The notes under the pieces: generated by a model
The model's database searches: none
The model's input: only the letters and a program-made list of their open reading frames with translations
Told to the model about the DNA's origin: nothing
DNA from: Methylobacterium sp. 2A
GTDB taxonomy: Bacteria; Pseudomonadota; Alphaproteobacteria; Rhizobiales; Beijerinckiaceae
DNA length: 64,000 bases
Assembly: GCF_009806555.1 (NCBI RefSeq)
Contig: NZ_VUOK01000010.1
Span: forward strand, 1-64,000
Direction of reading: 5' to 3'
Part shown: positions 14,407 through 47,138 of the stretch, piece by piece
Numbering within the stretch: the first letter of the stretch is position 1
Layout of the letters: each line of letters starts with the position of its first letter
Position numbers and translations under genes: made by a program

Positions 14407-14424
14407 CTTAAGCTTGACTTAAGC
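14407..14424 (+). promoter_or_regulatory. PmrA-type tandem box, copy 1
   Basis: CTTAAGC at 14407 and again at 14418 are direct repeats exactly 11 bp apart. PmrA/QseB-type response regulators bind CTTAAG-N5-CTTAAG. The site ends 52 bp upstream of the binding-protein gene. The same arrangement occurs at 18200 and 47121. Confidence 0.65.
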
Positions 14425-14476
14425 TACAGGGTCCAACGGCGACGTCTCCGTCCGGCGTAAAAGGAAGGCGATTTCG

Positions 14477-15445
14477 ATGCCTCAAATCAGGTTTCTCAGC
14501 CTTGCTTTGGGTTGCTGTTTACTTGTAGTTCAAGCCTCCCCGAGCCACGCGATCGATTCCCACGTAGGCCGGCTTCCCCCATGGCAAGCTGGGGCCAACA
14601 ACCCTGCAGTCGACAAGGGGTTGGAATTCACGGTTAAGGAGGCCGACAACCTCGCCGACTTCCATGGCGACCTGACCAACGCGCGCCTCGTGCTCTACGT
14701 GGGCGGCAATTACTTCTTCGCGATGGCGCCGCTGGTGGCGGCCTTCGAGGCGAAGCACCCTGAGCTCAAGGGCCGGATCTACTACGAGACGATTCCGCCG
14801 GGTCTGCTCGTCCGCCAAATGAAGGCCGGCGGGCGCATTACCGTCGGCAACATGACTTGGACGGCCAAGCCCGATGCGTACTTCTCGGGCCTCATGGCGG
14901 TAAATCGGCTCATTGAGGCGGGCGATCTTCTCGGCCCCCCGACGATCTACGCGACAAATCAGCTTGCGATCATGGTGCCCAAGGGCAACCCGGCGGGCAT
15001 CAAGGGCTTGGCCGATCTTGCGCGGCCGGGGCTGACCCTCGCCATGCCCAATCCCGAATTCGAAGGTGTCGCTCGCCAGATCAAGGCCTCCCTGGCCAAG
15101 GCGGGGGACGATGATTTGGTGAAGGCCGTCTACGAGACAAAGGTCGCCGACGGGACGACGCTTCTGACGCGGATGCATCATCGCCAGACGCCGGTCTGGC
15201 TAATGCAGGGACGCGCACAGGCCGGGGTCACGTGGCGTTCGGAAACCTTGTTCGAAGAGCAGGTTGGATTACCGACCGAGCGCATCGACATCCCGGACGA
15301 GCAGAACGCCACCGGCATCTATGCCGGAGCGGTCGTGAAGGACGCCGCGCATCCGGCCGAGGCGAAGCTCTGGCTGGATTTCCTCATGGGCGACGACGCG
15401 CGAGCGGTCTTCTCCCGTTATGGTTTTGGCCAATACCGGCCGTGA
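14477..15445 (+). CDS. Periplasmic substrate-binding protein (ModA/AcfC-like)
   Basis: A 322-aa product with a signal peptide (about residues 1-25, cleavage after SHA). The mature part is a type II binding protein: LVLYVGGNYFFAMAPLVAAF, then a large hinge domain ending DDARAVFSRYGFGQY. It resembles molybdate or oxyanion binding proteins, but no permease or ATPase gene is adjacent, so it is an orphan. It may feed a transporter elsewhere, or act as a ligand sensor for the histidine kinase at 47.8-49.2 kb, since it shares that system's candidate box. Next to thiosulfate genes, a sulfur oxyanion or molybdate (needed by SoxC) are both possible ligands. Confidence 0.75.
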   Translation: MPQIRFLSLALGCCLLVVQASPSHAIDSHVGRLPPWQAGANNPAVDKGLEFTVKEADNLADFHGDLTNARLVLYVGGNYFFAMAPLVAAFEAKHPELKGRIYYETIPPGLLVRQMKAGGRITVGNMTWTAKPDAYFSGLMAVNRLIEAGDLLGPPTIYATNQLAIMVPKGNPAGIKGLADLARPGLTLAMPNPEFEGVARQIKASLAKAGDDDLVKAVYETKVADGTTLLTRMHHRQTPVWLMQGRAQAGVTWRSETLFEEQVGLPTERIDIPDEQNATGIYAGAVVKDAAHPAEAKLWLDFLMGDDARAVFSRYGFGQYRP

Positions 15446-15484
15446 GGACTGCGGACTATCGTCGTGACGCCGGGCCGCTTCGCC

Positions 15485-15697
15485 TCATCGGCGGACCGGC
15501 GAGGCCTTCGGGCTGCGGGACAGGGCGCGGTTGAGCTTGCGCAAGGCGCGGTCGTCGCGGGTGCAGAGATCGTGGGCGAAGGCCTCCTCCAGATAGGCCG
15601 CCTCCGCCGATCGTTTCGTCCGGCCGGCGGCCTCGACCGCCGTCACCGCGCTGAGGACAAGGATTCCGACGAGACATCCGACACTCAGACCCTGCAC
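15485..15697 (-). CDS. Small secreted protein, GTG start
   Basis: A 70-aa product from a GTG at 15697, with GTGAGG upstream. It has a clear signal peptide (GLSVGCLVGILVLSAVTAVE) followed by a short charged, Arg/Lys-rich mature part with one Cys (HDLCTRDDRALRKLNRALSR). It follows the DsrE-like gene by 8 bp, so it is likely the last gene of the thiosulfate dehydrogenase operon. No family is recognised. Confidence 0.5.
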   Translation of the reverse strand: MQGLSVGCLVGILVLSAVTAVEAAGRTKRSAEAAYLEEAFAHDLCTRDDRALRKLNRALSRSPKASPVRR

Positions 15698-15705
15698 TGT
15701 CGGCC

Positions 15706-16473
15706 TCACTTCGCGTAATGAAAGCCGGCCTGCTGCAACTCGGGCAGCGTGCCGACGGCGCCGGGGGTCAGGACGACGCCCGGAATGAGATGGTTCGTCA
15801 GCTCCGCCAGCGCATCGTGCGAGAGCTTGTCCGGGTTCAGATCGCGCCGGATGAGCGTCCCCGCCTGTTCCCAGATTGCGTTGTGACACGAGAGGAATAC
15901 GACGCCCCGGGCCATCAGCGCCGGGATCGTGTTGTTCTCCGGCGAGAACATCCCCGCCGGGTCCTGGTAGTTCGCGGCCCCCGCCTGAGCCGCTTTCTTC
16001 CGCACGATCAGCGTGTTGGTCTTGAACGCCTCGCCCGCGAGCTTGGTGAGTTGGTACTTGTCCCACATCGCCTGGTCGTAGAGGGCGACATTCGCCGATC
16101 CGTGGGTCGCCGAGGCGGCCAGAAAATCGGGATGCTTGAATGACCAGACCTGATTGTTCAGGGCGTTGCGCATGAGGTTCAGCCACGGCCCGCCGATGTC
16201 GGTGTTGTCCCAGACCTGGCGGGGGCCTCCCTTGTAGGCGATCACCTCTGACAGGGCCTCGTGGTCCCAGAAATCTGGTCGGTCGAGGATCATCGGCACG
16301 ATCTTAAAATCCCGCCGGCGCGGGGCCCTCGCCAGACGGTCTGTGAGGTCCCGCAGATTTCGGCTGCCCTCGGGTAGGTCGGCGGCGGTGGTCGCCCCGG
16401 CCGGGCGCGCGTCCGCCAAGCCTGCGGCGAGGCCGGCGCCCAGGGCAAGCAGGCTGCGGCGTTCGAGGGTCAT
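15706..16473 (-). CDS. Tat-exported DsrE-like protein of the tsd operon
   Basis: A 255-aa product with a twin-arginine signal (MTLERRSLLALGAGLAAGLA). The mature part ends with a DsrE-like fold: RGVVFLSCHNAIWEQAG supplies a possible sulfur-carrying Cys, and the C-terminal TPGAVGTLPELQQAGFHYAK matches the end of periplasmic DsrE relatives. The first half is longer than usual. DsrE-type proteins carry persulfide between partners. It lies 29 bp downstream of tsdA, so it probably accepts or delivers sulfur for that enzyme. The exact partner is unknown. Confidence 0.65.
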   Translation of the reverse strand: MTLERRSLLALGAGLAAGLADARPAGATTAADLPEGSRNLRDLTDRLARAPRRRDFKIVPMILDRPDFWDHEALSEVIAYKGGPRQVWDNTDIGGPWLNLMRNALNNQVWSFKHPDFLAASATHGSANVALYDQAMWDKYQLTKLAGEAFKTNTLIVRKKAAQAGAANYQDPAGMFSPENNTIPALMARGVVFLSCHNAIWEQAGTLIRRDLNPDKLSHDALAELTNHLIPGVVLTPGAVGTLPELQQAGFHYAK

Positions 16474-16502
16474 GATCGTGCTCCCAGGGGGCCAGTTGCT
16501 GT

Positions 16503-17435
16503 TCAGTGCGGCACGGTCCCGGCAGGAGGTGCCCCCTCACCGAGCGTCACGCCGTCCACGGCCTGACCGTAGAAATCGTAAGGGCTGTCGTGATGGGCCT
16601 TGCGGGTCGCCGCGAGATCGCCGGTGAAGCGTGGGTCCTGCGGTCGCTCGCGACTGTCGATATAGGCGGCGACGTCCCAGGCTTCGGCATCGGTGAGGCT
16701 GTTGCCCTGGCTCAGCGGCATATTGGCCTTGATGAAGCCTGCCGCGTTGACGACCGAACTCATCCCCGCGCCCCAATTGTAGGAGCGGGCTCCCCACAGT
16801 GGCGGGAACACGATCGTCCCGTCCGGGCTCGCCTGCCCGGCACCGTCGCCACCGTGACAGAGGGCGCATTTCGCGGCGTAGACTTCTCGCCCATGGGCCA
16901 GATCGAGGCCTTTGGGCTTGGCGAGCTTCGGGTACCCCTGCCCGGGAAGCTTCATGCCTACGGGAGCCCCGTGGGCGAGGAAGGCGGCATAGGTCTCCAG
17001 CGCGACCAGGACGGGATCGCCCAGCGGGGGCGCCTTGCCGTTCATGCTGTAGCGGAAGCATCCCTGAAGCCGCTCCGCGAAGGTATTCACGTGACGGTTC
17101 TTCGCCCGGTAGGCCGGGTAGACGAGATAGGCCGCCCAGAGGGGAGCGGAATGGCCGAGGCGGCCCCGGTCGAGGTGACAGTTCGTGCAGCGCAGATCGT
17201 TGCCGACGAAGGCCCGCGCCTCGGCGCCCGTATCGCGAAAGATGCGCTCGCCCAGGCGAATGACTTGGCCGAAGTCGTCGTCGGAGATGGCGGAATCGGG
17301 CTGAGGCACGAAGGGCGGCGCGGTTGTCTCGGCCCCTACGGAACCGAGGGGCGTCAGGACCGCGAGGCCCCCCATCGCCGTTGCCAGCGCGAGGCGGGCT
17401 GCGGACCGTCCGGTGAAGCGCGTCATAAGGTTCAT
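16503..17435 (-). CDS. tsdA: Thiosulfate dehydrogenase TsdA (dihaem cytochrome c)
   Basis: A 310-aa secreted product (signal peptide to about residue 35). Two haem motifs are present, CTNCH and CALCH. Between them is LQGCFRYSMNG, the segment that in TsdA supplies the unusual Cys axial ligand of the active-site haem. TsdA joins two thiosulfates into tetrathionate in the periplasm, or runs in reverse. The start overlaps the upstream cytochrome gene by four bases (ATGA), so both are co-translated. Without the Cys one would call it a generic dihaem cytochrome; with it the identification is strong. Confidence 0.85.
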   Translation of the reverse strand: MNLMTRFTGRSAARLALATAMGGLAVLTPLGSVGAETTAPPFVPQPDSAISDDDFGQVIRLGERIFRDTGAEARAFVGNDLRCTNCHLDRGRLGHSAPLWAAYLVYPAYRAKNRHVNTFAERLQGCFRYSMNGKAPPLGDPVLVALETYAAFLAHGAPVGMKLPGQGYPKLAKPKGLDLAHGREVYAAKCALCHGGDGAGQASPDGTIVFPPLWGARSYNWGAGMSSVVNAAGFIKANMPLSQGNSLTDAEAWDVAAYIDSRERPQDPRFTGDLAATRKAHHDSPYDFYGQAVDGVTLGEGAPPAGTVPH

Positions 17436-18115
17436 CGGCCGCCTCCAATCGCCGTGACAGGAAGAGCGGCGTAGTAGGCAGCGACGGCGGTGGCGTCGTC
17501 ATCGCTCAGCCGGTCGGCGATCCCCTTCATCAGCCCGAGGGGATCGTTGTGGCGTGTCCCGGCTTTCCAGGCGGAGAGCTGCGCCGCGAGATAGGCGGCC
17601 GGCTGGCCGGCCAGCGGCGGGAAGGCGGCGCCGACGCCCTGCCCAGCTGGGCCGTGGCATTGTGCGCAAGCGGGCAATGCCTTCGTCCACTCACCAGTCT
17701 GCGCCAGCATTCGGCCGCGGTCGTATGCCGTGTCGTCCGGCTGGGGTGTCCCGTCGGGCGGCGGGGCGCGGAGCCCGGCATAAAAGACGGCCAACGCCCG
17801 CCGCTCCTCCGGTGCTAGGCCTTGGGCAATCGGACCCATGATCTCATGGTCCCGGCTGCCGTCGGCGAAGCTGTCGAGCTCGTGTGCGAGGTAGTCCTCC
17901 GCGAGGCCTGAAAGACGGGGAAAGCCGCCCTCGGCATTTCCGCCCCCGGAATCCCCGTGGCACGAGGCACAGGCCGGCACGCCGGCCTGTGTTCCGTTAC
18001 GGGCGATTTCACCACCGTCCATGGCTCGTGCTGGGCAGACAGAAGCACACATCAACAGTCCGCCGAACGCGATGCGGACACTCCTGCTCGCCGCCAGAGC
18101 CAACCTGCGACTCAT
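17432..18115 (-). CDS. Dihaem cytochrome c4-type electron acceptor (TsdB-like)
   Basis: About 227 aa with a signal peptide (SRRLALAASRSVRIAF, cleavage near PARA). Two class I haem domains follow: CASCH and CAQCH, each with a distal Met (LMKG in the second). This is the layout of cytochrome c4, the usual partner TsdB. It accepts electrons from TsdA and passes them to an oxidase. I prefer the start at 18115. An in-frame ATG at 18178 has a better ribosome site (AAGGA) but would fall very close to, or before, the promoter implied by the PmrA-type box at 18200-18217. Confidence 0.75.
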   Translation of the reverse strand: MSRRLALAASRSVRIAFGGLLMCASVCPARAMDGGEIARNGTQAGVPACASCHGDSGGGNAEGGFPRLSGLAEDYLAHELDSFADGSRDHEIMGPIAQGLAPEERRALAVFYAGLRAPPPDGTPQPDDTAYDRGRMLAQTGEWTKALPACAQCHGPAGQGVGAAFPPLAGQPAAYLAAQLSAWKAGTRHNDPLGLMKGIADRLSDDDATAVAAYYAALPVTAIGGGR

Positions 18116-18199
18116 CGGAAGCACAGCGACGAGCGCAGAAAAGGCAAGGTGAGAAACTTTGACCGACGGTGCATGCATTCCGCCATCCTTGCCGTCCTG

Positions 18200-18217
18200 C
18201 TTAAGCCAGGCTTAAGG
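18200..18217 (-). promoter_or_regulatory. PmrA-type tandem box, copy 2
   Basis: CTTAAGC at 18200 and CTTAAGG at 18211 are again 11 bp apart. The site is 22-85 bp upstream of the tsdB-like gene, depending on its start. The central bases (CCAGG) are identical to copy 3 at 47121. A G6/C6 hairpin lies just to the right (18215-18230). Confidence 0.65.
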
Positions 18218-18526
18218 GGGGCTGCCCCCCGCCGAACAATGGAAAGGCACTCAGCACAAATATCCGTCATCGCGGCGGCGCGCTGGCATCCCGGGCTGGA
18301 GGATGCACTGTCGAGAACGTCGGCACGAACATTCCTCTGGTCGAACGCGCCAACGTCCGCTCGACCTTTTCCGGGAGCGCGACAGCCGCCGAACCGGCAG
18401 TGGCTCCGGCTTCGCTATGGCAAAGGTAGGTCTCGGCCCGACCTCGCAAGGGGACTTACCAAGGACCGAAGCATCCTGAAGGGGTGGCGTGCAGGATCAC
18501 GGTTGCAATGGGCAGACCGACACCCT

Positions 18527-18625
18527 TCACACCCCCTTGAGTAGCCACCGCAGCGGCAGGGCGACAGCCGTGAGGCTCGCCACGCTCATCGCCCAGATCA
18601 GCACGAACCAGCCGAACCTGCGCAT
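18527..18625 (-). CDS. DUF2474 / CydX-like small subunit of bd oxidase
   Basis: A 32-aa product, MRRFGWFVLIWAMSVASLTA then VALPLRWLLKGV, with one membrane helix. Its start overlaps the cydB stop as TGATG. It has the length, position and single-helix form of DUF2474/CydX proteins, which stabilise cytochrome bd oxidases. It is the last gene of the cydAB operon. Confidence 0.75.
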   Translation of the reverse strand: MRRFGWFVLIWAMSVASLTAVALPLRWLLKGV

Positions 18626-19635
18626 CAGTGGTACCCCGCTTCCGCCGTGACCTTGCCGCGGAACAGCCAGTACACGTAGGCTGTGTAGGCCAGGACCAGG
18701 GGCACCAGCACCGCCGCGCCGTAGAGCAGGAAGCCCTGCGATTTCGGATGCGTCGCCGCCTGCCAGATCGTGACGCTCGGCGGCACGATGTACGGCCACA
18801 TGCTGATGCCGAGCCCGACATAGGACAGCAGGAAGAAACCGAGCGCGCAGAGGAAGGGCGTGACCTCCTCCCGCCGCCCTAGGGCCTGGGCGAAGCGCCA
18901 CGCCAGGAGCCCGACCAGGATCGGCACCGGCGCGCCGACGAACAGGCCGGGCAGGCCGAGCCAGCGGGCGCGAAAGGGCGCGCTGATCGCCAGCGTCGTC
19001 GCCGAGACCACGGCGATGAGGACCAGCGTCGCCACCGCCAAGGGCTTGGCGAGGTTATACGCCCGGATCTGCAATTCGCCGCTGGTCTTCCAAATCAGCC
19101 AGCAGGCCCCGAGCAGGCCGTAGCCTACGACGAGCGCGAAGCCGGTCAGCACAGAGAACGGCGTCAGCCAGTCCCACCAGCCGCCCGCATAGGCCCGGCC
19201 CTCGATCCTGATGCCCTGGACGAAGGCGCCGAGCGCGATCCCCTGGCAGAAGGCGGCGACGAAGCTGCCCCAGGAGAAGGCACGGTCCCACCACAGCTGC
19301 CCGCGCGGCGTCGCCATGCGGAAGCGCATCTCGAAGGCGACGCCCCGGAACACCAGCGCCAGCAGCATCAGGATCAGTGGCATGTACAGGGCGGGCAGGA
19401 TCGTGGCGTAGGCCAGCGGAAACACCGCAAACAACCCGCCGCCGCCCAGCACGAGCCAAGTCTCGTTGCCGTCCCAGACGGGGGCGACCGAGTTCACCAT
19501 CACGTCCCGCTCGGCCTTGCCGCGCACCGCCGGGAACAGGATGCCGAGCCCGAGATCGAACCCGTCCATCGCCACGTAGAGAAACACGGCGGTGGCGATG
19601 AGGATCGCCCAGATGAGGGTTAGATCGAGGTCCAT
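18625..19635 (-). CDS. cydB: Cytochrome bd-type quinol oxidase subunit II
   Basis: A 336-aa integral membrane protein with about eight helices. The start (MDLDLTLIWAILIATAVFLY) and the segment DGFDLGLGILFP followed by SVAPVWDGNETWLVLGGGG are diagnostic of CydB. It pairs with CydA to reduce oxygen to water using quinol. The close spacing to cydA (12 bp) and overlap with the DUF2474 gene show one operon. The short form without a haem-binding insert matches the cyanide-insensitive (Cio) type, which also tolerates sulfide and so fits the sulfur genes around it. Confidence 0.9.
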   Translation of the reverse strand: MDLDLTLIWAILIATAVFLYVAMDGFDLGLGILFPAVRGKAERDVMVNSVAPVWDGNETWLVLGGGGLFAVFPLAYATILPALYMPLILMLLALVFRGVAFEMRFRMATPRGQLWWDRAFSWGSFVAAFCQGIALGAFVQGIRIEGRAYAGGWWDWLTPFSVLTGFALVVGYGLLGACWLIWKTSGELQIRAYNLAKPLAVATLVLIAVVSATTLAISAPFRARWLGLPGLFVGAPVPILVGLLAWRFAQALGRREEVTPFLCALGFFLLSYVGLGISMWPYIVPPSVTIWQAATHPKSQGFLLYGAAVLVPLVLAYTAYVYWLFRGKVTAEAGYH

Positions 19636-19647
19636 GACAGCCTCCCC

Positions 19648-21072
19648 TCACTCGGCCGGTTGCAGGTGCGCGTCACCGGCGAGTGCCGGCGCCGGAGTAA
19701 TGCCCGCCGTGCGGACCGGCTGGCCGACGGGCGGGCCGGATTCGTGCGGTCGCGGGGTCTGGTTGAACAGGTGGAACAGGTACCAGATGCCCGCCCCGAA
19801 CACCGCGAAGTAGACCAGCGCGAAGGCCGCGAGGGAGGCCGCCACGGCGGGGGCGGCGATGGGTGAGACGCTGTCGGCGGTGCGCAGCAGGCCGTAGACC
19901 GTGAAGGGCTGGCGGCCGGTTTCCGTCACCACCCAGCCCGCCGTCACCGCGATCAGCCCCGAGGGGCCCATCGCCACGGCGAAGCGGTGCAGCCAGGGCG
20001 TCTCGAACAGGCGGCCCTTGTACCGCAGAAACAGCGACCACAGGCCGAGGCCGATCATCAGCATGCCGAGCCCGACCATCACCCGGAAGGCCCAGAACAC
20101 CAGCGGCAGGTTGGTCGGCCACGTGTCGCGCGGCAGGTCCTTCAGGCCCGTGACCTTCGCGTTCAGATCATGCGCGAGATAGAGGCTGGCGAGGCCCGGG
20201 ATGCCGATCTCGTATTTGGTCTCGGCGGCCTGCGCGTCCGGCCAGCCGAACAGAATCGAGGGCGCGCGGGTCACGCTGTCGAAGTGGCCCTCCATCGCCG
20301 CGACCTTGGCGGGCTGGTGGTGGTAGCTGTTCCCGCCGTGCAGGTCGCCGAGCACCAGTTGCACCGGGGCGACGATCGCCGCCATCCACATCGCCATGGA
20401 GAACATCAGCCGGGCGCGGGGATTGGTCCGGTCGCGCAGCAGGTGCCACGCGCCGACCGCGCCGACGATCATCGCCGTCGTCAGATAGGCCGCCGTCACG
20501 GTGTGGGCGAAGCGGTAGGGGAAGGACGGGTTGAAGATCACCGCCGTCCAGCTCTCCGGCACGAACCGGCCGTCGGCATCGAGCGAGTAGCCCGCGGGCG
20601 TCTGCATCCAGGAATTGGCGGACAATATCCAGAAGGCCGAGAGCAGCGTGCCGCCCGCGACGAGGCAGGTCGCCAGGAAGTGCAGGCGGGGGCCCACCCG
20701 CTCCATCCCGAACAGCATCACCCCGAGGAAGCCCGCCTCCAGGAAGAAGGCGGTCAGCACCTCATAGCCGAGCAGCGGCCCGAGCACGGGAGCGGTCTTG
20801 TCCGAGAAGACCGACCAGTTGGTGCCGAACTGGTAGCTCATCACCAGCCCCGACACGACGCCCATGGCGAAGGCTACGGCGAAGACCTTCAGCCAGTAGC
20901 GGTAGGTGTCGAGATAGACTGGCTTGTCGGTGGCGAGCCAGAAGGCTTCCAGCACCGCGAGATAGCTCGCCAGCCCGATGGTGAAAGCCGGGAACAGGAA
21001 GTGCCAGACGACCGTGAAGGCGAACTGACTGCGGGCGAGGTCGAGCGCGCTCGGGAGATGGTTGGCCAGCAT
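19648..21072 (-). CDS. cydA: Cytochrome bd-type quinol oxidase subunit I (cyanide-insensitive type)
   Basis: A 474-aa product from the ATG at 21072 ([20 protein letters not shown]). The frame is open further up, but that would add 35 atypical residues. It has about nine helices. Conserved parts include FHFLFPA-like [15 protein letters not shown], the haem-ligand regions around [12 protein letters not shown] and [11 protein letters not shown], and a short Q-loop typical of the Cio branch. It oxidises quinol and binds haems b and d or their equivalents. Its location beside peroxiredoxin and SQR suggests it takes electrons from sulfide-derived quinol while resisting sulfide inhibition. Confidence 0.9.
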
Positions 21073-21222
21073 CCGTGGGCGCTGCCTTTGGCGGGAATGG
21101 GGACATCCGGGAGGCCCGCCATGGACCGTACCGAACCAAGCATGCCGCCGGAATGTCGCCCCGCCTTCATATGCCACAGCTCGGGCGTGTCAATACAAGT
21201 TTATGATGCGAAGACCTACTCG

Positions 21223-21238
21223 ATATGAATTTGCATAT
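21223..21238. promoter_or_regulatory. Palindrome in the cydA/peroxiredoxin control region
   Basis: ATATG and CATAT form a perfect inverted repeat with a 6-nt spacer, in an AT-rich patch between the divergent cydA and peroxiredoxin genes. It is a candidate operator, possibly for the ArsR-type regulator co-transcribed with the peroxiredoxin. A related CGCATATG sequence lies upstream of soxX near 29131. Confidence 0.4.
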
Positions 21239-21301
21239 TGACCGGCATCGTAGCGAGGTCCACGGTGCTGACCACACTGTTGAAACGTCGAGAGTTGTTC
21301 C

Positions 21302-22508: not shown

Positions 22509-22513
22509 TAGCT

Positions 22514-36214: not shown

Positions 36215-36676
36215 ATGATGCTGTCGCGCAGGGGCGTGTCCGGATTGGCCGCACTGCTGGCTGGGCTCGGAGCGAGCAGGGCCACGGCGGCTCCGGCAAC
36301 CGGCCCGAAGACCCACCGGGTCGCGATGCAGGTCAGTTCCCGCGAGGGCGGCGTGTTCGATCTCGCCCTCAACAATGCGGTCAACCTCGCGCGCGAATAC
36401 AGCGAGCAGGCCGAGGAACTGGAAGTCGAGATCGTCGCCTATGGCCCAGGCCTGCACATGCTGCGGGCCGACACATCGCCCGTCACGGCGAGGATCCATT
36501 CCATCAGCGAGAGCGTGCCGGGGATCGTCCTCTCGGCCTGCGGCAACACCGTCAAGGCCATGGAGAAGGCCGAGGGGCATTCGCTGGAATTGCTGCCCCA
36601 CGTCGGCATCGTTCCGGCGGGGGCGGTCCGTCTCGTGACCCTTCAGGAAGCAGGATGGAGCTACCTGCGCGTTTAA
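36215..36676 (+). CDS. Secreted DsrE-family protein
   Basis: A 153-aa product with a signal peptide (MMLSRRGVSGLAALLAGLGA). The core fits DsrE: VAMQVSSREGGVFDLALNNA, VEIVAYGPGLHML, and IVLSACGNTVKAME with a candidate sulfur Cys, ending RLVTLQEAGWSYLRV. It is the last gene of the rightward sox operon and one of three secreted DsrE-like proteins in this window. It may carry sulfane sulfur in the periplasm. Confidence 0.8.
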   Translation: MMLSRRGVSGLAALLAGLGASRATAAPATGPKTHRVAMQVSSREGGVFDLALNNAVNLAREYSEQAEELEVEIVAYGPGLHMLRADTSPVTARIHSISESVPGIVLSACGNTVKAMEKAEGHSLELLPHVGIVPAGAVRLVTLQEAGWSYLRV

Positions 36677-38417: not shown

Positions 38418-38460
38418 GGGCTGTCTGGGTCCTTGTGATGGGTCGAGGCTTACGGGCGGC

Positions 38461-40121: not shown

Positions 40122-40150
40122 CCTGCGGCCTGTCGGCTTGCCAGTCCCGA

Positions 40151-40537
40151 TCAGGCTGGCTCGACGGTGCCGCCGGCCTTCGCCATCGCGGGGAAGCCGC
40201 CCGCGACATGGGCGACCGGTCCGAGGCCCATGTCGTTCAGGGTCTTGGCTGCCAGGGCCGAACGGTTGCCGGAGCCGCAGTAGAGCACCAGGCACTTGCC
40301 TTCGCCGAGCTCGGCCCGGTGGGTCGGGCTCGCGGGGTCGGCCTGGAACTCCAGGAAGCCGCGGGGCACGTGGACGGCGCCGGCGATCCTGCCGGTCTTG
40401 GCCAACTCCTCGCCCTCGCGCACGTCGACGAGCACCGAGCCCGGCTGGCCCAGGCGCGCCAGCGCCTCCGCGGCCGACAGGGTCTCCACCTCCCGGTTGG
40501 CCTGCGCCACCAGGTCCTTCGCGCTGATCGTGGTCAT
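40151..40537 (-). CDS. Single-domain rhodanese
   Basis: A 128-aa product. The active-site loop is CGSGNRS with Cys87 (VLYCGSGNRS) and the domain starts VLVDVREGEE. It has no signal peptide. It transfers sulfane sulfur, here probably between thiosulfate or persulfide and glutathione. It is the last gene of a leftward operon, 11 bp after a persulfide dioxygenase. Confidence 0.9.
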   Translation of the reverse strand: MTTISAKDLVAQANREVETLSAAEALARLGQPGSVLVDVREGEELAKTGRIAGAVHVPRGFLEFQADPASPTHRAELGEGKCLVLYCGSGNRSALAAKTLNDMGLGPVAHVAGGFPAMAKAGGTVEPA

Positions 40538-40548
40538 GGTCACCTCCG

Positions 40549-41460
40549 TCAATCGCCCCACGCCGCACCGTCGAGGGAGTCGAGCGGGATCTTCAGGTAG
40601 CGGCGGCCGTTCGCCTCGGGCTCGGGCAGGCGCCCGCCGCGGATGTTCACCTGCAGGGAGTGCAGGATGAGCTTCGGCATCGGCAGTTCGCGGTCCCGGG
40701 CCTCGCGCATCGCCACGAACGCCTCCTCGGTCGGTGTCTCGACGAGGTGCGGGTTCTCGCTCCGCTGCCGGGCGACCGTGCTCTCCCAGGCCGCCGCCCG
40801 GCCGCCCGGGCGGTAGTCGTGCCCGGTGAACAGCCGCGTGTCGTCCGGCAGGGCCATGATGCGCCGGATGCTGCGCCACAGCGCGTGCGCGTTGCCGCCG
40901 GGGAAGTCGGCCCGCGCCGAGCCGCTGTCGGGCATGAACAGGGTGTCGTGGATGAAGGCGGCGTCGCCGATCCGATAGGCGATGGAGGCCAGGGTGTGGC
41001 CCGGCGTGAACATCACCTCGACTTCGAGGTCGCCGATCCGGAAGCGCTCGCCGTCGGCGAAGAGCCGGGACCACTGCGAACCGTCCGTCCGGAACGTGTC
41101 CGGCAGGTTGTACAGCCCCTTCCAGAGCCGCTGCACGTCGATGACCTTCTCGCCGATGGCGGTCGGGACGCCCGTCCGGTCGTGGAGGTAACCTGCCGCC
41201 GAGAAGTGGTCGGCGTGCGGGTGCGTGTCGAGGATCCACTCCAACTCGTAGCCCTCCCGCTCGATATGGGCGAGCAGGGCATCGGCGGAGCGGGTCGCGG
41301 TCGCGCCGGACTTCGGGTCGAAGTCGAGGACCGGGTCGATGATCGCGCAGCGCTTCGTCGCGGGGTCCGCGACGACGTACTGGATGCTCCCGGTCGGCTC
41401 GTCGTGGAAGCCGGTCACGATGGGATGCCCGCGCAGGGCTCCGGCGGTCTGGTTCGACAT
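40549..41460 (-). CDS. Persulfide dioxygenase, second copy
   Basis: A 303-aa metallo-beta-lactamase protein. Metal motif THPHADH (His80, His82, Asp84, His85), then FTPGHTLASIAYR, FIHDTLFMPD and TGHDY. The C-terminal LILHSLQVNIRGGRLP matches the first copy at 25516, so the two are paralogues. It oxidises glutathione persulfide to sulfite. It lies between TauE and rhodanese in one operon. Confidence 0.9.
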   Translation of the reverse strand: MSNQTAGALRGHPIVTGFHDEPTGSIQYVVADPATKRCAIIDPVLDFDPKSGATATRSADALLAHIEREGYELEWILDTHPHADHFSAAGYLHDRTGVPTAIGEKVIDVQRLWKGLYNLPDTFRTDGSQWSRLFADGERFRIGDLEVEVMFTPGHTLASIAYRIGDAAFIHDTLFMPDSGSARADFPGGNAHALWRSIRRIMALPDDTRLFTGHDYRPGGRAAAWESTVARQRSENPHLVETPTEEAFVAMREARDRELPMPKLILHSLQVNIRGGRLPEPEANGRRYLKIPLDSLDGAAWGD

Positions 41461-41480
41461 GGATCTCCTCCTGTCCGGGA

Positions 41481-42290
41481 TCAGGCGCTCAGGCCGAGGA
41501 GCGGCAGGGCCCCGCGGGCGACGACGTACAGGCCGACCAGGATGACGAGGCCGGCGAAGGTGACGGTCAGGGCGCGCTTGCGCCCGGCGAGGCGCTGGCC
41601 GAGCCTCGATCCGACGAGGCCCCCGAGCACGCCCCCCAGGATGAACAGCCCGGCGAGCGGCCAGTCGATCAGGCCGGAGGCGGCGTAGCTCGCTGCGGTC
41701 GCCGCCCCGAAGGCGCTGACCGCGACCAGCGAGGTGCCGATGGCCATGGGCAGCGGCATCGCCGTCGCCAGCATCAGGCCCGGCACGATCAGGAATCCCC
41801 CGCCGATGCCGAAGAAGCCGGAGAACAGGCCGACCGCGAGGCCGATGCCGAGGAGCCAAGGCAGGAGCACCGGCGCGCTGGCCTTGGTCAGGCGCACGTC
41901 CGGGTCGCCCTCGCCGCGTCGCTTGCGCAGCATCAGGCCCCCGACCACGAGCATGACGACCCCGAACAGGGCGAGCAGGCTCTTCCCGTCGACCGCCTTG
42001 GCGGCCGCCGAGCCGACGAGCGCGCCAAGGACCCCGGCGAGCGAGAACGCCGCCGCGCAACGCCACTTCACGTTCCCGGCTCGCCATTGCGGGACCAGGT
42101 TGCCCGCCGCGCTGACCGAGACCGCCAGGGCGCTGGTCCCGATGGCGACGTGGGGCGAGGACACGCCGACCACGTAGGTCAGCAGTGGGACCGCGAGGAT
42201 CGAGCCGCCCCCGCCGACGAGGCCGAGGATCACGCCCACGACCCCGCCCGAGCCGGCGGCGAGGCCGGATGTGAGGGGGCCGGGCATCAT
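41481..42290 (-). CDS. TauE/SafE-family sulfur-anion exporter, second copy
   Basis: A 269-aa membrane protein with about eight helices. Both family repeats are present: VILGLVGGGGSILAVPLL and SGFFGIGGGFLIVPGLM. It is clearly related to the copy at 24406. It should export sulfite formed by the dioxygenase encoded next. The start overlaps the stop of the preceding transporter gene. Confidence 0.87.
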   Translation of the reverse strand: MMPGPLTSGLAAGSGGVVGVILGLVGGGGSILAVPLLTYVVGVSSPHVAIGTSALAVSVSAAGNLVPQWRAGNVKWRCAAAFSLAGVLGALVGSAAAKAVDGKSLLALFGVVMLVVGGLMLRKRRGEGDPDVRLTKASAPVLLPWLLGIGLAVGLFSGFFGIGGGFLIVPGLMLATAMPLPMAIGTSLVAVSAFGAATAASYAASGLIDWPLAGLFILGGVLGGLVGSRLGQRLAGRKRALTVTFAGLVILVGLYVVARGALPLLGLSA

Positions 42291-42736
42291 GCGTCGGCTC
42301 CCAGCGCGGCGGTCGGCTTCAGGCGCGCCGCCGGCACCAGGCGGAACAGCAGCATGCCGGCGACCATCGCCGCCACGAAGGTCACGGCCTCGGCCGGGGC
42401 CACCGTCAGGATGGTGAGGGCGGGCCCGGGGCAGAGGCCGGCCAAGCCCCATCCGAGGCCGAAGATCGCGGCCCCGGCGAACAGGCGTCCGTCGAGGTCG
42501 CGCCGGGTCGGGACGTCGAGCCTGGGCGCGAGCAAAGGCCGTCCGCGCCGCCTCGCCAAGCGGTAGCCGGCGGCCGAGATTGCGACGGCGCCCGCCATGA
42601 CGAGGGCGAGGCTCGGGTCCCAGCGTCCGGTCACGTCGAGGAAGGCGAGGACCTTGGCCGGGTCGGCCATGCCCGAGACGAGGAGGCCGAGGCCGAACAG
42701 GAGGCCGACGGCGAAGGCGGAGGCGGTCTTGGCCAT
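42287..42736 (-). CDS. YeeE/YedE (DUF6691) half transporter
   Basis: A 149-aa membrane protein with four to five helices. The motif GLAGLCPGPALTIL supplies the conserved Cys, and the start LLFGLGLLVSGMADPAKVLA is typical of DUF6691. Such halves pair with a second YeeE half, encoded just upstream, to make a sulfur-compound channel. Together the two correspond to the single longer protein at 26449. Confidence 0.85.
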   Translation of the reverse strand: MAKTASAFAVGLLFGLGLLVSGMADPAKVLAFLDVTGRWDPSLALVMAGAVAISAAGYRLARRRGRPLLAPRLDVPTRRDLDGRLFAGAAIFGLGWGLAGLCPGPALTILTVAPAEAVTFVAAMVAGMLLFRLVPAARLKPTAALGADA

Positions 42737-42739
42737 GGC

Positions 42740-43165
42740 TCAGGCTCCGACGAGATGGCGCATGACGAGGACGGTCAGGACGGCGACGGTCATGAAGATG
42801 CCGGTCGCGGCCAGCGAGCGGGGCGAGCCGCGGCCGATGCCGCAGACTCCGTGGCCGCTGGTGCAGCCTGAGCCGAGGCGCGCGCCGAACCCGACCAGCA
42901 GGCCCGCGAGGATCAGCAGCGGGAATGACGCCTCGACCGTCACCGGCGGAAGGCTGCCCCCCAGGCCGGCATAGGCGAGTGGTGCGAGGACGAGGCCTGC
43001 CACGAAGGCCGCCCGCCAAGCGGTCTCACCCGAGGGCGGGGCCAGGATGCCGCCGAGGATGCCGCTGATGCCGGCGATGCGTCCGTTGAGGATGAGCAGC
43101 AGCGAGGCGGACCCGCCGATCATCGCTCCGCCGAGAATTGCGCTGACGGGGGTGAAGCCTTCCAT
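42740..43165 (-). CDS. YeeE/YedE half transporter
   Basis: A 141-aa membrane protein from the ATG at 43165 (MEGFTPVSAILGGAMIGGSA). The motif GARLGSGCTSGHGVCG carries the conserved Cys and is diagnostic. A TTG at 43180 is an alternative start. It is the first gene of the operon 43165-40151, following the ATTAG/CTAAT operator by 87 bp. With its partner it likely imports thiosulfate or another sulfur compound. Confidence 0.85.
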   Translation of the reverse strand: MEGFTPVSAILGGAMIGGSASLLLILNGRIAGISGILGGILAPPSGETAWRAAFVAGLVLAPLAYAGLGGSLPPVTVEASFPLLILAGLLVGFGARLGSGCTSGHGVCGIGRGSPRSLAATGIFMTVAVLTVLVMRHLVGA

Positions 43166-43251
43166 CTCAATCTGTCCCAAAGTGCGGTCCGGGAAGCGCC
43201 CGGTCCGGCCGCGGGGACTACTGCCCCACGCAAAACATTAGATGACACTCA

Positions 43252-43267
43252 ATTAGCATCTTCTAAT
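43252..43267 (-). promoter_or_regulatory. ArsR-type operator ATTAG-N6-CTAAT, copy A
   Basis: ATTAG (43252) and CTAAT (43263) form a perfect inverted repeat with a 6-nt spacer. An additional ATTAG half-site lies at 43237, and a longer repeat CATTAGA/TCTAATG spans 43236-43268. The same 5-6-5 arrangement precedes the ArsR gene at 49158. It probably controls the persulfide operon 43165-40151. Confidence 0.6.
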
Positions 43268-43371
43268 GTAATGACAAGCGGAAAGATGGTCCGGCGGACA
43301 AGCGCCCTAGAGTCAGGTGCGGCGGCACACGATCAGGTCTTCGCGGTCGATTGCCGAAGCGGTGTAAGGCC

Positions 43372-43839
43372 TCAGGGGTGGATGTATGCGAACCCCATGG
43401 CCTGCAGGCGCGCCAGTTCGGCGACGCCGCTCGGCACGAGGTCGTCCTCGCCGACGCCGTACAGGGTGGTGCGGTCTATCTTCCGCTCGCGCAGGGTGTT
43501 GGCGCAGACCAGGAACCGCACACCCATCCCCTTGAGGGCGTCGATGCGGCCGGCGAGTTCTTTGTCGTTCGCGGCCGACTGGAAGAGGCCGACGCCGTAA
43601 CCGAGGCTCACCACGCGGATCTCGACATGCGCCTTGCCCACGGCCTCGACGTGGTTGCGCAGGTTGGCGAGCAGGCGCTTGAAGTAGGCTGCTTCGTCCG
43701 GACCGCTTCCGCCATTGTGGTAGACCACCTTCTGGTCGGCGTAGTAGCCGGCCGGCGCCTCCGAGCCGGCACGAACCGTTCCGATGCCCATCGTCGCGAG
43801 GACGACCGCCAGCGCCAGGCTCCTAAAGACCGTCGTCAT
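43372..43839 (-). CDS. Secreted DsrE-family protein, third copy
   Basis: A 155-aa product with a signal peptide (MTTVFRSLALAVVLATMGIG). The DsrE core is visible: KVVYHNGGSGPDEAAYFKRL, VEIRVVSLGYGVGLF, VRFLVCANTLRERK with a candidate sulfur Cys, and RLQAMGFAYIHP at the end. It is the last gene of the dsbD operon and overlaps the L,D-transpeptidase gene by 17 bp. It could act as a periplasmic sulfur carrier. Confidence 0.8.
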   Translation of the reverse strand: MTTVFRSLALAVVLATMGIGTVRAGSEAPAGYYADQKVVYHNGGSGPDEAAYFKRLLANLRNHVEAVGKAHVEIRVVSLGYGVGLFQSAANDKELAGRIDALKGMGVRFLVCANTLRERKIDRTTLYGVGEDDLVPSGVAELARLQAMGFAYIHP

Positions 43840-44632
43840 CCGCCACTCCGTCGTCCGTCAGGGGTTCGGGCGCCTCCGAGGCGCCGCGGGATAGGTCGTC
43901 GAGGCGCGCACGGTCGAGGCTGCCGGTCGTCTCCGGCGCGGCCGGCCGCGCGGCCTGGGCGGTGCCGTGCGACCCAAGCACGACGACCTTCGTGCCCGTA
44001 GGTACGCGGCGGTGCAGGTCGATGACGTCCTGGTTGAGCATGCGGATGCACCCCGAGGACACCGCCTCGCCGATGCTCCAGGGCTCGGTGGTGCCGTGGA
44101 TGCGGTAGAGCGTATCCTTGCCGTCCTTGAACAGGTAGAGCGCGCGGGCCCCGAGGGGATTGCGTGCGCCACCTGGCATCCCGCCGGCCCAGCGCCCGTT
44201 CCGCTCCGGGTCACGCCTGAGCATGTCGGGGGTCGGCGTCCAGCGCGGCCAGGACGCCTTGCGGGCGACAGTCGCCTCCCCGGTGAACTCGAAGCCGGCC
44301 TTGCCCACGCCGACCCCGTAGCGCATGGCCTTGCCGCCCTCCATGACGAGGTAGAGGAAGCGCCGGTAGGGGTCGACCACGAGCGTGCCCGGTGGCTGCT
44401 TGGTCGGATAGTCGACAACCTGGCGGACGTTGCGGGCCTTCAGGTCGCGTGGCTCGACCGCATCGACCGGGAACGGCTCGTCGGTGATGGCCGCGTAGCG
44501 ACGAACGGCATCGGCCGGAAGGCGCGCCCCCGCCCCGGCGACCGGGCCGGGGGCGCCCATCGAGGCCGAGCAGGCTCCGACCCCCGCGGCGAGCGCGAGG
44601 AGCGCCGTTAGGCGCATCACCCGCCGCATCAC
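43823..44632 (-). CDS. L,D-transpeptidase (YkuD/ErfK family), lipoprotein
   Basis: A 269-aa product with a lipobox (AAGVGACSAS), so it is probably outer-membrane anchored. The catalytic motif HGTTEPWSIGEAVSSGCIRM contains the His and the nucleophile Cys of YkuD domains. It cross-links peptidoglycan or attaches lipoproteins to it. Finding it between DsbA and DsrE in one operon is unusual. Its catalytic Cys would need to be kept reduced, which gives DsbD/DsbA a plausible job here. Confidence 0.88.
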   Translation of the reverse strand: MMRRVMRLTALLALAAGVGACSASMGAPGPVAGAGARLPADAVRRYAAITDEPFPVDAVEPRDLKARNVRQVVDYPTKQPPGTLVVDPYRRFLYLVMEGGKAMRYGVGVGKAGFEFTGEATVARKASWPRWTPTPDMLRRDPERNGRWAGGMPGGARNPLGARALYLFKDGKDTLYRIHGTTEPWSIGEAVSSGCIRMLNQDVIDLHRRVPTGTKVVVLGSHGTAQAARPAAPETTGSLDRARLDDLSRGASEAPEPLTDDGVADDDGL

Positions 44633-45258
44633 GAGCGGCCCTTGGCGCGTGCCTGGGCCACCGCCTGCTTGAAGCCGTCGTAGTCGAGGGCGGCCGCGAC
44701 CTTGAGCGGGCCGATCAGGAAGACCGGCGTCCCCTGCAGGCCGAGGGCGTCCGCCTGGTCGAGGTTGCGCTGGAGCAGGGCGGCGATCTCGCCCTGGTGG
44801 GACGTCCGATCCGCCTCCAGGCGGGCCATGTCGACGCCCGAGGCGGAGACCGCCTCCAGCATCCGCTCCTTCGGGATCTTACGGCCGGGGATGCCCATCA
44901 GCGCGCGATGCACGTCGTCGTAGCGGCCCTGGTACCGCGCCGCGAGGGCGAGCTGGGCGCCGTAGACGGAGGCGTCGCCGAGAATCGGCCAATCCTTGTG
45001 GACGAGGCGGATGCGCCCGTCCGACTTCACCAGCCGGAGAAGGTCGGGCTCAGCCTTCTTGCAGAAGGGGCAGTTGTAATCGAGGAAGGCGACGATGGTC
45101 AGGTCGCCCTTCGGGTTGCCCGAGACCGGCGCCTCCGGGTCATTGAGGATGGCGTTCTGGTCGATGCCCTGGGCGAAGGCCTCTTCCGTGTGCGGCGATA
45201 GCAGGGCGGGCGCGAGGGCGATGGCGGGGATTAGGGCGAGCAGGGTCCGGCGGTGCAT
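44629..45258 (-). CDS. DsbA-type thiol:disulfide oxidoreductase
   Basis: A 209-aa product with a signal peptide (HRRTLLALIPAIALAPALLS). The active site is CPFC (LDYNCPFCKKAE), with a helical insert and cis-Pro TPVFL typical of DsbA/Com1. It forms or reshuffles disulfides in the periplasm. It overlaps the L,D-transpeptidase by four bases (ATGA) and follows dsbD by 39 bp. Confidence 0.87.
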   Translation of the reverse strand: MHRRTLLALIPAIALAPALLSPHTEEAFAQGIDQNAILNDPEAPVSGNPKGDLTIVAFLDYNCPFCKKAEPDLLRLVKSDGRIRLVHKDWPILGDASVYGAQLALAARYQGRYDDVHRALMGIPGRKIPKERMLEAVSASGVDMARLEADRTSHQGEIAALLQRNLDQADALGLQGTPVFLIGPLKVAAALDYDGFKQAVAQARAKGRS

Positions 45259-45297
45259 GACGGTCTCCGTGGGTATGGGTGGCTCGGAAGAGGCAGT

Positions 45298-47079
45298 TCA
45301 GGCTCCGACGAGGGCGAGGCGGCGCTTCAGGTCCTCGACCGTGAGTTCGCCCTCGGTGCGGGCCTCCCGGACCTCGCCGCCGTCGGGACGCATCAGGATG
45401 AGGGTCGGCGGACCGACCACCTCGAAGCGACGCATCAGGGCGCGGGTGGCGTCGTCGTCACGGGTGACGTCGGCCCGGATGACCGAGACGGCCTTGAGCC
45501 TCTCCCGGATGCCGGCGTCCGCCAGGACCGTCCGCTCGTTCGTCTTGCAGACGGTGCACCAGTCGGCGGCGAACTCGACAAGCACCGGCTTGCCCTCAGC
45601 TCGGGCCGCCAGGAGGGCCGCCTCGAAGGCGGTGAGCGTGGAGACCGTCCGCGCCTCGGCGATGTGGCCCGGATGCGACGGGGCGAGGCCGGCAAGCGGC
45701 CGCAGCGGGTCGTCCGCGCCCGTGGCAGCCCCGAGGAGGAGGAGGCCGCCATAGGCGACGGCGACCAAGCCCGCCGCGCGACCGGCGGGTGACGGGCGAC
45801 CGTTCGTGGTCAGCACCGCGAGCGCCATGCCGGTGCCGATGGCGAGCGCCGCCCAAATCAGGAGGGACAACACGTCCGGCAGCAAGCGTGTCACGAGCGA
45901 GGCCGCAAGAGCCAGGAACACGAGGCCGAATGCTTGCTTCGCCCGCACCAGCCAGGGGCCGGACCGGGGCAGGATGCCGGCGCCGAACGCGCCGACGAGC
46001 ACCAGCGGCGCACCCATCCCGAGGCCGAGGGCGAAGAGGGCCAGCGCCCCGCGCAGGACATCCCCCGTTTGGGCGACGTAGAGCAGGGCGGCAGCAAGGG
46101 GTGGCGTCACGCAGGGACCGACGACGAGGGCCGAGCTGAAGCCGAGGAACGCGGCCCCGGCGACCGACCCACCTTCCGCCGCCGGGGCGCCGAAGCGGTC
46201 CCGCCACCAGCGCGGCGCCTGCAGGTCGAACAGGCCGAACATCGACAGTGCCAGCGCGACGAAGGCGGTGGCCATCAGGCCGAGGGCGAGAGGGGTCTGG
46301 AGGGCGACCTGCAGGTTGCGGCCGAGCCACGCCGCCGCGACGCCGAAGCTGGCATAGGCCGCCGCCATGGCGAGGACGTAGCTTCCGGACAGCGCCAGGC
46401 CCCGCCCCGGCGTGAGGCCCTGGCCCGAGCGGACGATCATGCCCGACAGAATCGGCACCATCGGCAGCACGCAGGGGGTGAACGCCAGCAGGAGGCCGAG
46501 CCCGAACATGCCCGCCAGGACGCCGACGAGGTTGCCGACGAGGAGGGCGGCCGGCCCGGCGGGGAAGACGTCCTGGCGGGAGGCGGCGGCGACCGTCGCG
46601 TCTGCCGGCTCGGCGGCGGGGGCGGCTCCGCCGGCCGGTGATGCGCCGGCGTTCGCCAGGGAGGCCAGGTCCAGCCGCTTCGTGACCGGCGGGTAGCAGA
46701 TGCCCCGCTCGGCGCAGCCCTGGTAGATGACCCGGATCTCCCGCAGGCTGGCCAGCGCCGCGCCGGGCACGATGGCCTCCACGGAGTCGTGGTAGACCTC
46801 CGTCGGCCCGAAGTTCAGGTCGTCCTTTGTCTCGGCGGTCGGCGTGGTGACGGGAAGCTCCGCGCCGGCACCGGCCTCGGCGCGGATCCTGTCGCGATAG
46901 AGATAGGTGCCGGGCGCGATGGTCCAGCGGAGGTGGAGCGAGAGGTGCGCGTCCCGTGTCGCGACGAGAGTGAAGGGCGACTGCCGCCCGGCGAGGTCCT
47001 GCGACCATACCGGCAACCAGGGCGATGCGCCCGCCCAGACAAGGGCGGCGAGGAAGAGGTGGGCTAATACGTTCGGCAT
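45298..47079 (-). CDS. dsbD: Thiol:disulfide interchange protein DsbD
   Basis: A 593-aa three-domain protein. The periplasmic alpha domain has the Cys pair in YQGCAERGICYPPVT. The membrane domain has about eight helices with Cys in FTPCVLPMVP and VGPCVTPPLA. The C-terminal thioredoxin domain has WCTVCK. It passes electrons from cytosolic thioredoxin to periplasmic proteins. It begins the operon dsbD-dsbA-L,D-transpeptidase-dsrE. Its start lies 42 bp from the PmrA-type box at 47121, shared with the divergent response regulator. Confidence 0.93.
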   Translation of the reverse strand: MPNVLAHLFLAALVWAGASPWLPVWSQDLAGRQSPFTLVATRDAHLSLHLRWTIAPGTYLYRDRIRAEAGAGAELPVTTPTAETKDDLNFGPTEVYHDSVEAIVPGAALASLREIRVIYQGCAERGICYPPVTKRLDLASLANAGASPAGGAAPAAEPADATVAAASRQDVFPAGPAALLVGNLVGVLAGMFGLGLLLAFTPCVLPMVPILSGMIVRSGQGLTPGRGLALSGSYVLAMAAAYASFGVAAAWLGRNLQVALQTPLALGLMATAFVALALSMFGLFDLQAPRWWRDRFGAPAAEGGSVAGAAFLGFSSALVVGPCVTPPLAAALLYVAQTGDVLRGALALFALGLGMGAPLVLVGAFGAGILPRSGPWLVRAKQAFGLVFLALAASLVTRLLPDVLSLLIWAALAIGTGMALAVLTTNGRPSPAGRAAGLVAVAYGGLLLLGAATGADDPLRPLAGLAPSHPGHIAEARTVSTLTAFEAALLAARAEGKPVLVEFAADWCTVCKTNERTVLADAGIRERLKAVSVIRADVTRDDDATRALMRRFEVVGPPTLILMRPDGGEVREARTEGELTVEDLKRRLALVGA

Positions 47080-47120
47080 GGGCGGGGTCCGGATCGGCCC
47101 GCCGCAGGTCGGAAACGCAG

Positions 47121-47138
47121 CTTAAGCCAGGCTTAAGC
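47121..47138. promoter_or_regulatory. PmrA-type tandem box, copy 3 (between dsbD and the response regulator)
   Basis: CTTAAGC at 47121 and 47132 are direct repeats exactly 11 bp apart, with CAGG between. The site lies 38 bp before the response regulator gene and 42 bp before the divergent dsbD. This fits autoregulation plus control of dsbD. Copies 1 and 2 are at 14407 and 18200. Confidence 0.7.

Follow-up and report, generated by a model that had tools for sequence, protein, structure and literature searches.

The window analysed here, the first 64,000 nucleotides of contig NZ_VUOK01000010.1 of Methylobacterium sp. 2A, is a sulfur-oxidation island. It holds three copies of a 17-base-pair (bp) box, CTTAAG-N5-CTTAAG, and, beside the third copy, a two-component regulator-kinase pair that is the box's candidate partner. 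The island opens with the gene for a periplasmic substrate-binding protein (sbp), tsd, tsdA and tsdB, followed by cytochrome bd genes and a peroxiredoxin gene. Next come a sulfide:quinone reductase-like fusion, TauE, a persulfide dioxygenase-like protein, a YeeE transporter and soxW/X/Y/Z/A/B/C-like genes, the sox names being assigned from Pfam domains and gene order. After sox lie a CcdA-like gene, a pentapeptide protein, a Crp-family regulator, a second dioxygenase-like protein and a DUF6691/YeeE-like pair; the island ends with dsrE, an L,D-transpeptidase gene (ldt), a DsbA-like gene (dsbA), dsbD, box 3, the regulator and the kinase. The boxes and the genes discussed with them are as follows.

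14407-14423, + strand: box 1, CTTAAGCTTGACTTAAG, 53 bp upstream of the binding-protein start
14477-15445, + strand: sbp, periplasmic substrate-binding protein (SBP_bac_11), with distant sulfate/molybdate-binding relatives
15706-16473, - strand: tsd, thiosulfate dehydrogenase family NF052225 (387 bits, cutoff 300)
16503-17435, - strand: tsdA, dihaem cytochrome of the TsdA type (PDB 5lo9, E 2.6e-84; 4wqc, E 1.1e-53)
17432-18178, - strand: tsdB-like cytochrome c with two haem-binding motifs
18200-18216, - strand: box 2, CTTAAGCCTGGCTTAAG when read towards tsdB
36215-36676, + strand: probable exported protein, after the sox genes, boxless here
43372-43839, - strand: DsrE-family protein, probably exported, at the end of the dsbD gene run
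43823-44632, - strand: L,D-transpeptidase (YkuD), probable lipoprotein, with an SSGCIRM motif
44629-45258, - strand: DsbA/ScsC-like thioredoxin protein with a CPFC motif
45298-47079, - strand: dsbD, transmembrane thiol reductase (PRK00293, 479 bits, cutoff 330)
47121-47137, + strand: box 3, CTTAAGCCAGGCTTAAG towards the regulator, between the divergent dsbD and regulator genes
47177-47839, + strand: response regulator of the OmpR family, resembling PmrA/QseB and retaining H193 and H195
47836-49152, + strand: QseC-like sensor kinase with a 2CSK_N sensor domain and C81

All six CTTAAG hexamers of the window fall in the three pairs (14407/14418, 18200/18211 and 47121/47132), so that, as the preliminary description had stated, there is no other such pair. 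Shuffled versions of the window held a mean of 2.0 single hexamers, and six were reached in 1 of 100 shuffles. The pairs had been described as direct repeats of CTTAAGC at 11 bp. This holds on the + strand at 14407 and 47121; at 18200 only the - strand carries an exact 7-mer pair, the + strand reading CTTAAGCCAGGCTTAAGG with a second repeat that ends in G. The hexamer is the unit, and the unvarying core of the box is the 17-mer. Measured distances confirm the placement originally reported, before the binding-protein gene, before the tsd operon and between dsbD and the regulator: box 2 lies 21 bp from the first in-frame ATG of the tsd operon, and box 3 lies 39 bp from the regulator start and 41 bp from dsbD. 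Judging by the encoded signal peptide, the true start of tsdB is probably near 18115, 84 bp from box 2. A thiosulfate operon does stand behind this box; its order is corrected to tsdB-tsdA-tsd, the second gene encoding the TsdA-type dihaem cytochrome. A sequence search of the PDB with the tsd protein gave no relative.

Across the whole genome (6,395,352 bp in 67 contigs) CTTAAG-N5-CTTAAG occurs at three sites, all inside the window, and a reversed-pattern control occurs at none. With a window-trained Markov model 0.006 occurrences would be expected, and 0.03 with an independent-base model; the box is thus not scattered at random. With up to two mismatches the genome holds 32 box-like sites versus 62 for the reversed control, and since these looser matches are not enriched we claim no wider regulon from degenerate sites. 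The sole one-mismatch box (contig C6, position 172285; locus L206) is near a paralogous two-component system and about 60 bp upstream of a sulfite-dehydrogenase-like gene. The paralogous regulator-kinase pair is at C6:168598-169251, and its regulator is 62% identical to that of the window.

The genus was sampled through 111 Methylobacterium genomes (G-numbers denote compared genomes, G000 being that of the window, and L-numbers loci). Exact boxes, 59 altogether, were found in 37 of the 111. A regulator search at E <= 1e-70 gave matches in 38 genomes; orthologues (at least 82% identity) amount to 37 copies in 32 genomes, and every one of the 37 has an exact box 37-40 bp upstream of its start codon. 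Relatives keep the box at the same genes. It occurs in five of the 79 genomes without a regulator orthologue. Eight other matches are paralogues of 61-65% identity, of which just two (G034, G089) have an exact box within 4 kb. Five genomes (G001, G023, G029, G075 and G107) have two orthologous regulator copies.

Other genes share the box in parts of the genus. In G102 the box spacings are identical to those of the window and the compared island proteins are 100% identical. The box precedes sbp in G000, G102 and G029, and box 1 is exact at the same place in the latter two. It precedes tsdB in G000, G102, G029, G034 and G006, overlapping the projected start in G006, and is present in exact form at all five close tsd orthologues. 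SorA-like genes follow a box in G007, G082, G034 and G089 (the SorA model gives the G007 protein 486 bits, below the cut-off of 600). In G040 and G110 the box stands before a homologue of the 36215 protein, with dsrE and sbp behind it on the same strand; one G006 box precedes a DsbA-like/DsrE/redoxin cluster, and one G099 box precedes none of the regulator, sbp, tsdB, SorA-like or 36215-type genes. We rejected the idea that all Methylobacterium boxes form one regulon: six precede genes for receptor-sized proteins of 773-786 amino acids, of which the one scanned is a methyl-accepting chemotaxis protein, and three of these six genomes (G031, G064 and G071) have no regulator match. Another regulator may therefore use a similar site. 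The six boxes (L035, L043, L052, L065, L066 and L079; near position 5000) have other spacers, for example TCCGA and TCGGA.

In an order-wide sample of 397 genomes (regulator threshold E <= 1e-80), the regulator is present in 36, of which 33 are outside Methylobacterium. The exact box is found in all 36 and in 20 of the 361 other genomes (Fisher p 4e-37, kinship ignored). Five of these 20 were examined, and three (G405, G416, G332) have a regulator/kinase homologue below the cut-off. Regulator, box and divergent dsbD occur together in Bosea, Bradyrhizobium, Rhizobium and Agrobacterium records and, among Rhodobacterales, in Oceaniglobus, a metagenome-assembled genome (MAG) and Oceaniovalibus, whose box has one mismatch. 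In a Sulfitobacter record the regulator and kinase come with the box, and the only sign of an L,D-transpeptidase in the vicinity is a weak match. An exact box lies within 220 bp at 74 of 78 regulator loci, some of which share a genome, and the spacer is 5 in every hexamer pair; the other four loci comprise two one-mismatch sites and two exact boxes heading a same-strand ldt-regulator-kinase run. In the stretches examined around nine more distant kinase homologues (30-36% identity; from MAGs titled Gammaproteobacteria, Thiotrichaceae, Chromatiales, Methylophilaceae or Proteobacteria) there is no exact box and no homologue of the Dsb genes. Because the same wiring recurs in many related bacteria, it looks like a genuine control circuit.

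The sequence CTTAAGCCWGGCTTAAG is palindromic throughout except at its centre. The 78 loci yield 58 distinct 41-mers, and in 49 of these the spacer of the regulator-facing box is CCAGC, CCAGG or GCAGC. Boxes facing dsbD, cytC1, sbp and dsbA are mostly T-centred when read towards the target; at dsbD and dsbA this largely mirrors the box that they share with the regulator. Exceptions include dsbA in L186, ldt in L190 and L199, cytC1 and dsrE in L187, homologues of the 36215 protein and two SorA-like genes. These patterns suggest that the box has a reading direction and is not a mere palindrome.

Among the loci fetched, 107 of 124 distinct exact boxes precede homologues of one short list of genes: the regulator, dsbD, dsbA, ldt, tsdB/tsdA, SorA/SoxC-like genes, sbp, the 36215 protein and dsrE (two of the 107 also precede a kinase). 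As many loci were fetched because of the regulator, this share is not an unbiased census, and the same choice favours the regulator as commonest neighbour (76 of the 124 boxes; dsbD has 64). Outside the genus, boxes lead the regulator, dsbD, dsbA, the L,D-transpeptidase, dsrE and tsdB; ldt has a box of its own in Rhizobium and Agrobacterium records and in G165, G474, G297, G359 and G405, as has dsrE in G186. Within Methylobacterium, soxB (E <= 1e-150) is found in 20 of 32 regulator-bearing versus 3 of 79 other genomes (p 5e-11, kinship ignored), and in 18 of the 20 it lies within 30 kb of the regulator.

Six plasmid records (L218-L223), three of them predicted to be conjugative, carry the regulator in a regulator-kinase-dsbD-dsbA-ldt unit. 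On a conjugative Bosea plasmid a box stands ahead of a tsdB-tsdA fusion followed by tsd and sbp, and another sits between dsbD and the regulator. On two conjugative Bradyrhizobium plasmids dsbD, dsbA, ldt, a methyltransferase-like gene, tsd and sbp follow one another on one strand behind one box. Of all single lines of evidence, we regard these gene orders as the one that most strongly ties tsd, dsbD and the binding protein to each other. Together with the comparative genomics they support the single regulon proposed in the preliminary description; its label of orphan for the binding protein does not hold on the Bosea and Bradyrhizobium plasmids, where sbp follows tsd. In the laboratory strain Methylorubrum extorquens AM1 the two-component system (regulator 89% identical) and box are on the megaplasmid. 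Plasmid location, together with the double copies in five Methylobacterium genomes, suggests lateral spread. We note three further details of these plasmids. The Bosea plasmid (L219) has a third exact box at 14341, about 24 bp upstream of a SoxB-like gene, and sox may thus be a target there, unlike in the window. On the Martelella plasmid (L222) a gene annotated as DoxD (thiosulfate:quinone oxidoreductase subunit; 10050-11114) adjoins the kinase, with a second exact box beyond it at 11990. The Bradyrhizobium betae plasmid (L221) has its kinase annotated as two separate reading frames (8663-10008), so that this copy may be broken.

The proteins form a two-component system of the OmpR/PhoB family, a receiver and winged-helix regulator standing beside a HisKA/HATPase kinase. 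The regulator aligns with PmrA without gaps over residues 1-216 and scores 225 bits with the PmrA model (equivalog cut-off 330), 211 with QseB (345) and 150 with the heavy-metal subfamily. QseC is both the best family match of the kinase and the closest solved kinase by sequence; the QseC NCBIfam model gives 227 bits and its cut-off of 475 is missed. With the PmrA, QseB and QseC cut-offs missed, we describe the regulator as putatively PmrA-like on DNA and do not file it as PmrA. Among 65 regulators H193 is kept in 63, and H195 and R210 in all; H193 and H195 have been proposed as base-specificity determinants of PmrA in the accessible part of PMC3973317. C81 is present in all 63 aligned kinases and in both kinases left out of the alignment (65 of 65). 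Two of the 63 kinase loci, one being the own-genome paralogue, have a one-mismatch site and no exact box in the stretch examined. Phenylalanine or tyrosine occupies the C81 position in the nine distant box-less homologues. A structural model of the kinase (mean predicted local distance difference test score, pLDDT, 81; predicted template modelling score, pTM, 0.51) places C81 in the first strand of a domain between two long N-terminal helices, and C81 is thus probably periplasmic. In a fold comparison the 50 listed of 898 matches are nearly all histidine kinases or their catalytic parts, so that the comparison is uninformative about the sensor domain in particular.

What is observed is a set of rare sites conserved together with the regulator, the linkage of the genes, an invariant cysteine and conserved DNA-reading residues. 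From these we propose, with a probability of about 0.7, that this PmrA/QseB-type system (neither PmrA nor QseB) senses periplasmic reactive sulfur or thiol stress and induces thiol repair together with thiosulfate and sulfite oxidation. Sulfur compounds that attack thiols or disulfides would act on C81 of the kinase, the candidate signals being thiosulfate, tetrathionate, sulfite, sulfane sulfur or a disturbed periplasmic thiol-disulfide balance. The regulator (47177-47839) would then be phosphorylated, bind both half-sites head-to-tail in the manner of PmrA, and activate. Binding, activation as opposed to repression, the signal and the role of C81 as sensor are the parts that we infer. The set under control would comprise the regulator and kinase themselves, the dsbD-dsbA-ldt-dsrE run, the tsdB-tsdA-tsd operon and the binding-protein gene. 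DsbD would pass electrons to the DsbA-like protein, so keeping the L,D-transpeptidase cysteine and other thiols reduced, and the output would also replace and protect this cysteine-dependent cell-wall cross-linker. TsdBA, Tsd and, elsewhere, SorA-like enzymes would remove the sulfur compound by oxidising it.

A broader version is possible, and we put it forward tentatively, as something that may well prove wrong. The system would be a widespread alphaproteobacterial response to periplasmic sulfur stress in which thiosulfate, tetrathionate, sulfite or sulfane sulfur modifies C81; the constant output would be the cross-linker and its own DsbD/DsbA rescue, modules for thiosulfate and sulfite oxidation would have joined by gaining the 17-bp box, and the unit would move on conjugative plasmids.

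Several observations weigh against the proposed sulfur-stress circuit. The tsd and sbp targets are patchy, and less conserved than the core of regulator, dsbD, dsbA and L,D-transpeptidase: no exact box lies in the 5 kb around six tsd copies (identity about 70%), and the binding-protein genes of G034 (62% identity) and G006 (85%) have no box within 350 bp at up to three mismatches. No soxB match at the cut-off used was found in 12 of the 32 regulator-bearing Methylobacterium genomes; sulfur oxidation is thus not obligatory, and the core output would be thiol repair and the L,D-transpeptidase. Seventeen of the 124 boxes precede no listed gene. Among the neighbours that were scanned are a thioredoxin protein whose DsbC match is sub-threshold, a fusion resembling Lgt-TlpA, a protein of the Thioredoxin_4 family and one terminal oxidase subunit. 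A receiver-domain protein also occurs there, as do unrelated genes such as one for a glycosyltransferase and a patatin-like one. The box is a direct and an inverted repeat at once, so another dimeric protein could use it, and H193 and H195 are also kept in the nine box-less homologues, so these residues do not prove the site. Binding, expression and phenotype are predictions from sequence.

Among other explanations, the signal might be copper, or another metal or oxidant that attacks thiols, with DsbD and DsbA acting in the manner of Scs proteins and the sulfur genes secondary. Such a signal would fit the DsbA-like protein, whose best PDB match is 3gyk but which also matches ScsC-type and copper or metal resistance proteins (4xvw, 6mhh, 6nen, 4gxz), the 12 genomes without soxB, and the lower-scoring match of the regulator to the heavy-metal subfamily. 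We nevertheless think it unlikely: the PmrA and QseB models outscore the heavy-metal model, sulfur genes recur next to boxes in several families, and no copper-efflux or multicopper-oxidase gene stands beside a box among the family-scanned genes. That the box is an inverted repeat for a different dimeric regulator, the two-component pair being a mere neighbour or target, is suggested by the near-perfect palindrome of CTTAAGCCWGGCTTAAG and by the 20 of 361 genomes with an exact box and no detected regulator. However, three of the five examined among those 20 have a sub-cut-off homologue, the regulator is the commonest neighbour (with the bias of locus choice already given), the 11-bp repeat and the DNA-reading residues match the PmrA type, and 49 of the 58 distinct copies have an oriented spacer centre; we consider this explanation very unlikely.

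We give still less credence to a true PmrAB-type system for cationic peptides, iron or envelope charge, in which the L,D-transpeptidase would serve envelope remodelling. The hexamer and spacing are those of PmrA and the core does include a cell-wall enzyme, but Dsb, L,D-transpeptidase and sulfur genes predominate at the boxes, no lipid A modification gene is found at the annotated ones, and the PmrA, QseB and QseC equivalog cut-offs are missed. Chance, that is three unrelated occurrences of a motif, has nothing but the shortness of that motif to recommend it; with 0.006-0.03 occurrences expected in the genome and a box conserved across families, it is already refuted by conservation and merits practically no weight.

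The half-sites of Salmonella PmrA are CTTAAG followed by XTTAAT with a 5-bp spacer, according to the accessible part of PMC3973317. PmrAB (BasRS) and the system described here thus share an OmpR-family regulator, the same kind of half-sites and the spacer; the latter differs in its regulon of periplasmic thiol and sulfur genes, its 2CSK_N kinase with an invariant cysteine and its two perfect half-sites. Lipid A modification genes are targets of PmrA, and none is among the box-flanking genes that were annotated, which are a part of all flanking genes. QseBC has the same kinase architecture, with the QseB and QseC family cut-offs missed here, and responds to autoinducer-3 or catecholamines. ScsABCD are copper-tolerance proteins; as there, a DsbD-like membrane reductase in the window has a DsbA-like partner, which matches ScsC structures. 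The membrane protein passes the DsbD cut-off. Unlike in ScsABCD, the pair is linked to an L,D-transpeptidase gene and to that of a PmrA-type regulator, and genes for sulfur oxidation lie next to them. In E. coli, L,D-transpeptidases are protected by DsbG and DsbD. The accessible part of PMC8775594 does not support this DsbG-transpeptidase link.

Two-component control of periplasmic thiosulfate metabolism is also known from RsrS/RsrR, which is EnvZ/OmpR-like, and TspS/TspR of Acidithiobacillus, with targets tetH, tqo and sox (PMC6335251, accessible part). The printed binding sequences are AACACCTGTTACACCTGTT and TGTCCCAAATGGGACA; the 19-bp RsrR-type AACACCTGTTACACCTGTT, as printed, is unlike the conserved CTTAAG-N5-CTTAAG, and TGTCCCAAATGGGACA differs too. 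The term DsbD is absent from the main text of that paper. Thiosulfate oxidation in the alphaproteobacterium Hyphomicrobium is controlled by SoxR/sHdrR, which are ArsR-type sulfane-sulfur repressors and not two-component systems (PMC12423496, accessible part); DsbD and transpeptidase are absent from its main text. The main text of PMC3797975 (Starkeya) contains none of the terms two-component, response regulator and DsbD. The site type and the protein families are already known. For the regulon, its spread and the conserved cysteine we found no description among the titles and abstract starts that searches of an open-access library listed, in line with the preliminary description, which knew of none for this gene combination.

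An ArsR-family regulator gene (49158-49505, - strand) adjoins the kinase, as it does in many relatives; its best specific model is the sulfur-sensing repressor BigR (78 bits, cutoff 155). Two sulfur regulators, the two-component pair and the ArsR-family protein, may thus share the island. Searches with the 36215 protein against NCBIfam and with its G110 homologue against Pfam gave no match. A common origin of the small exported proteins at 36215 and 43372 was considered and dropped, as direct comparison yielded no match.

The analysis yields a concrete regulator, a very clean predicted binding site and a candidate sensing residue. It bears on the protection of thiols and cell wall in bacteria whose oxidation of sulfur compounds is periplasmic. 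A function for the recurrent dsbD-dsbA-L,D-transpeptidase gene group, and a role in thiosulfate oxidation for the so far unassigned substrate-binding protein, are suggested as well.

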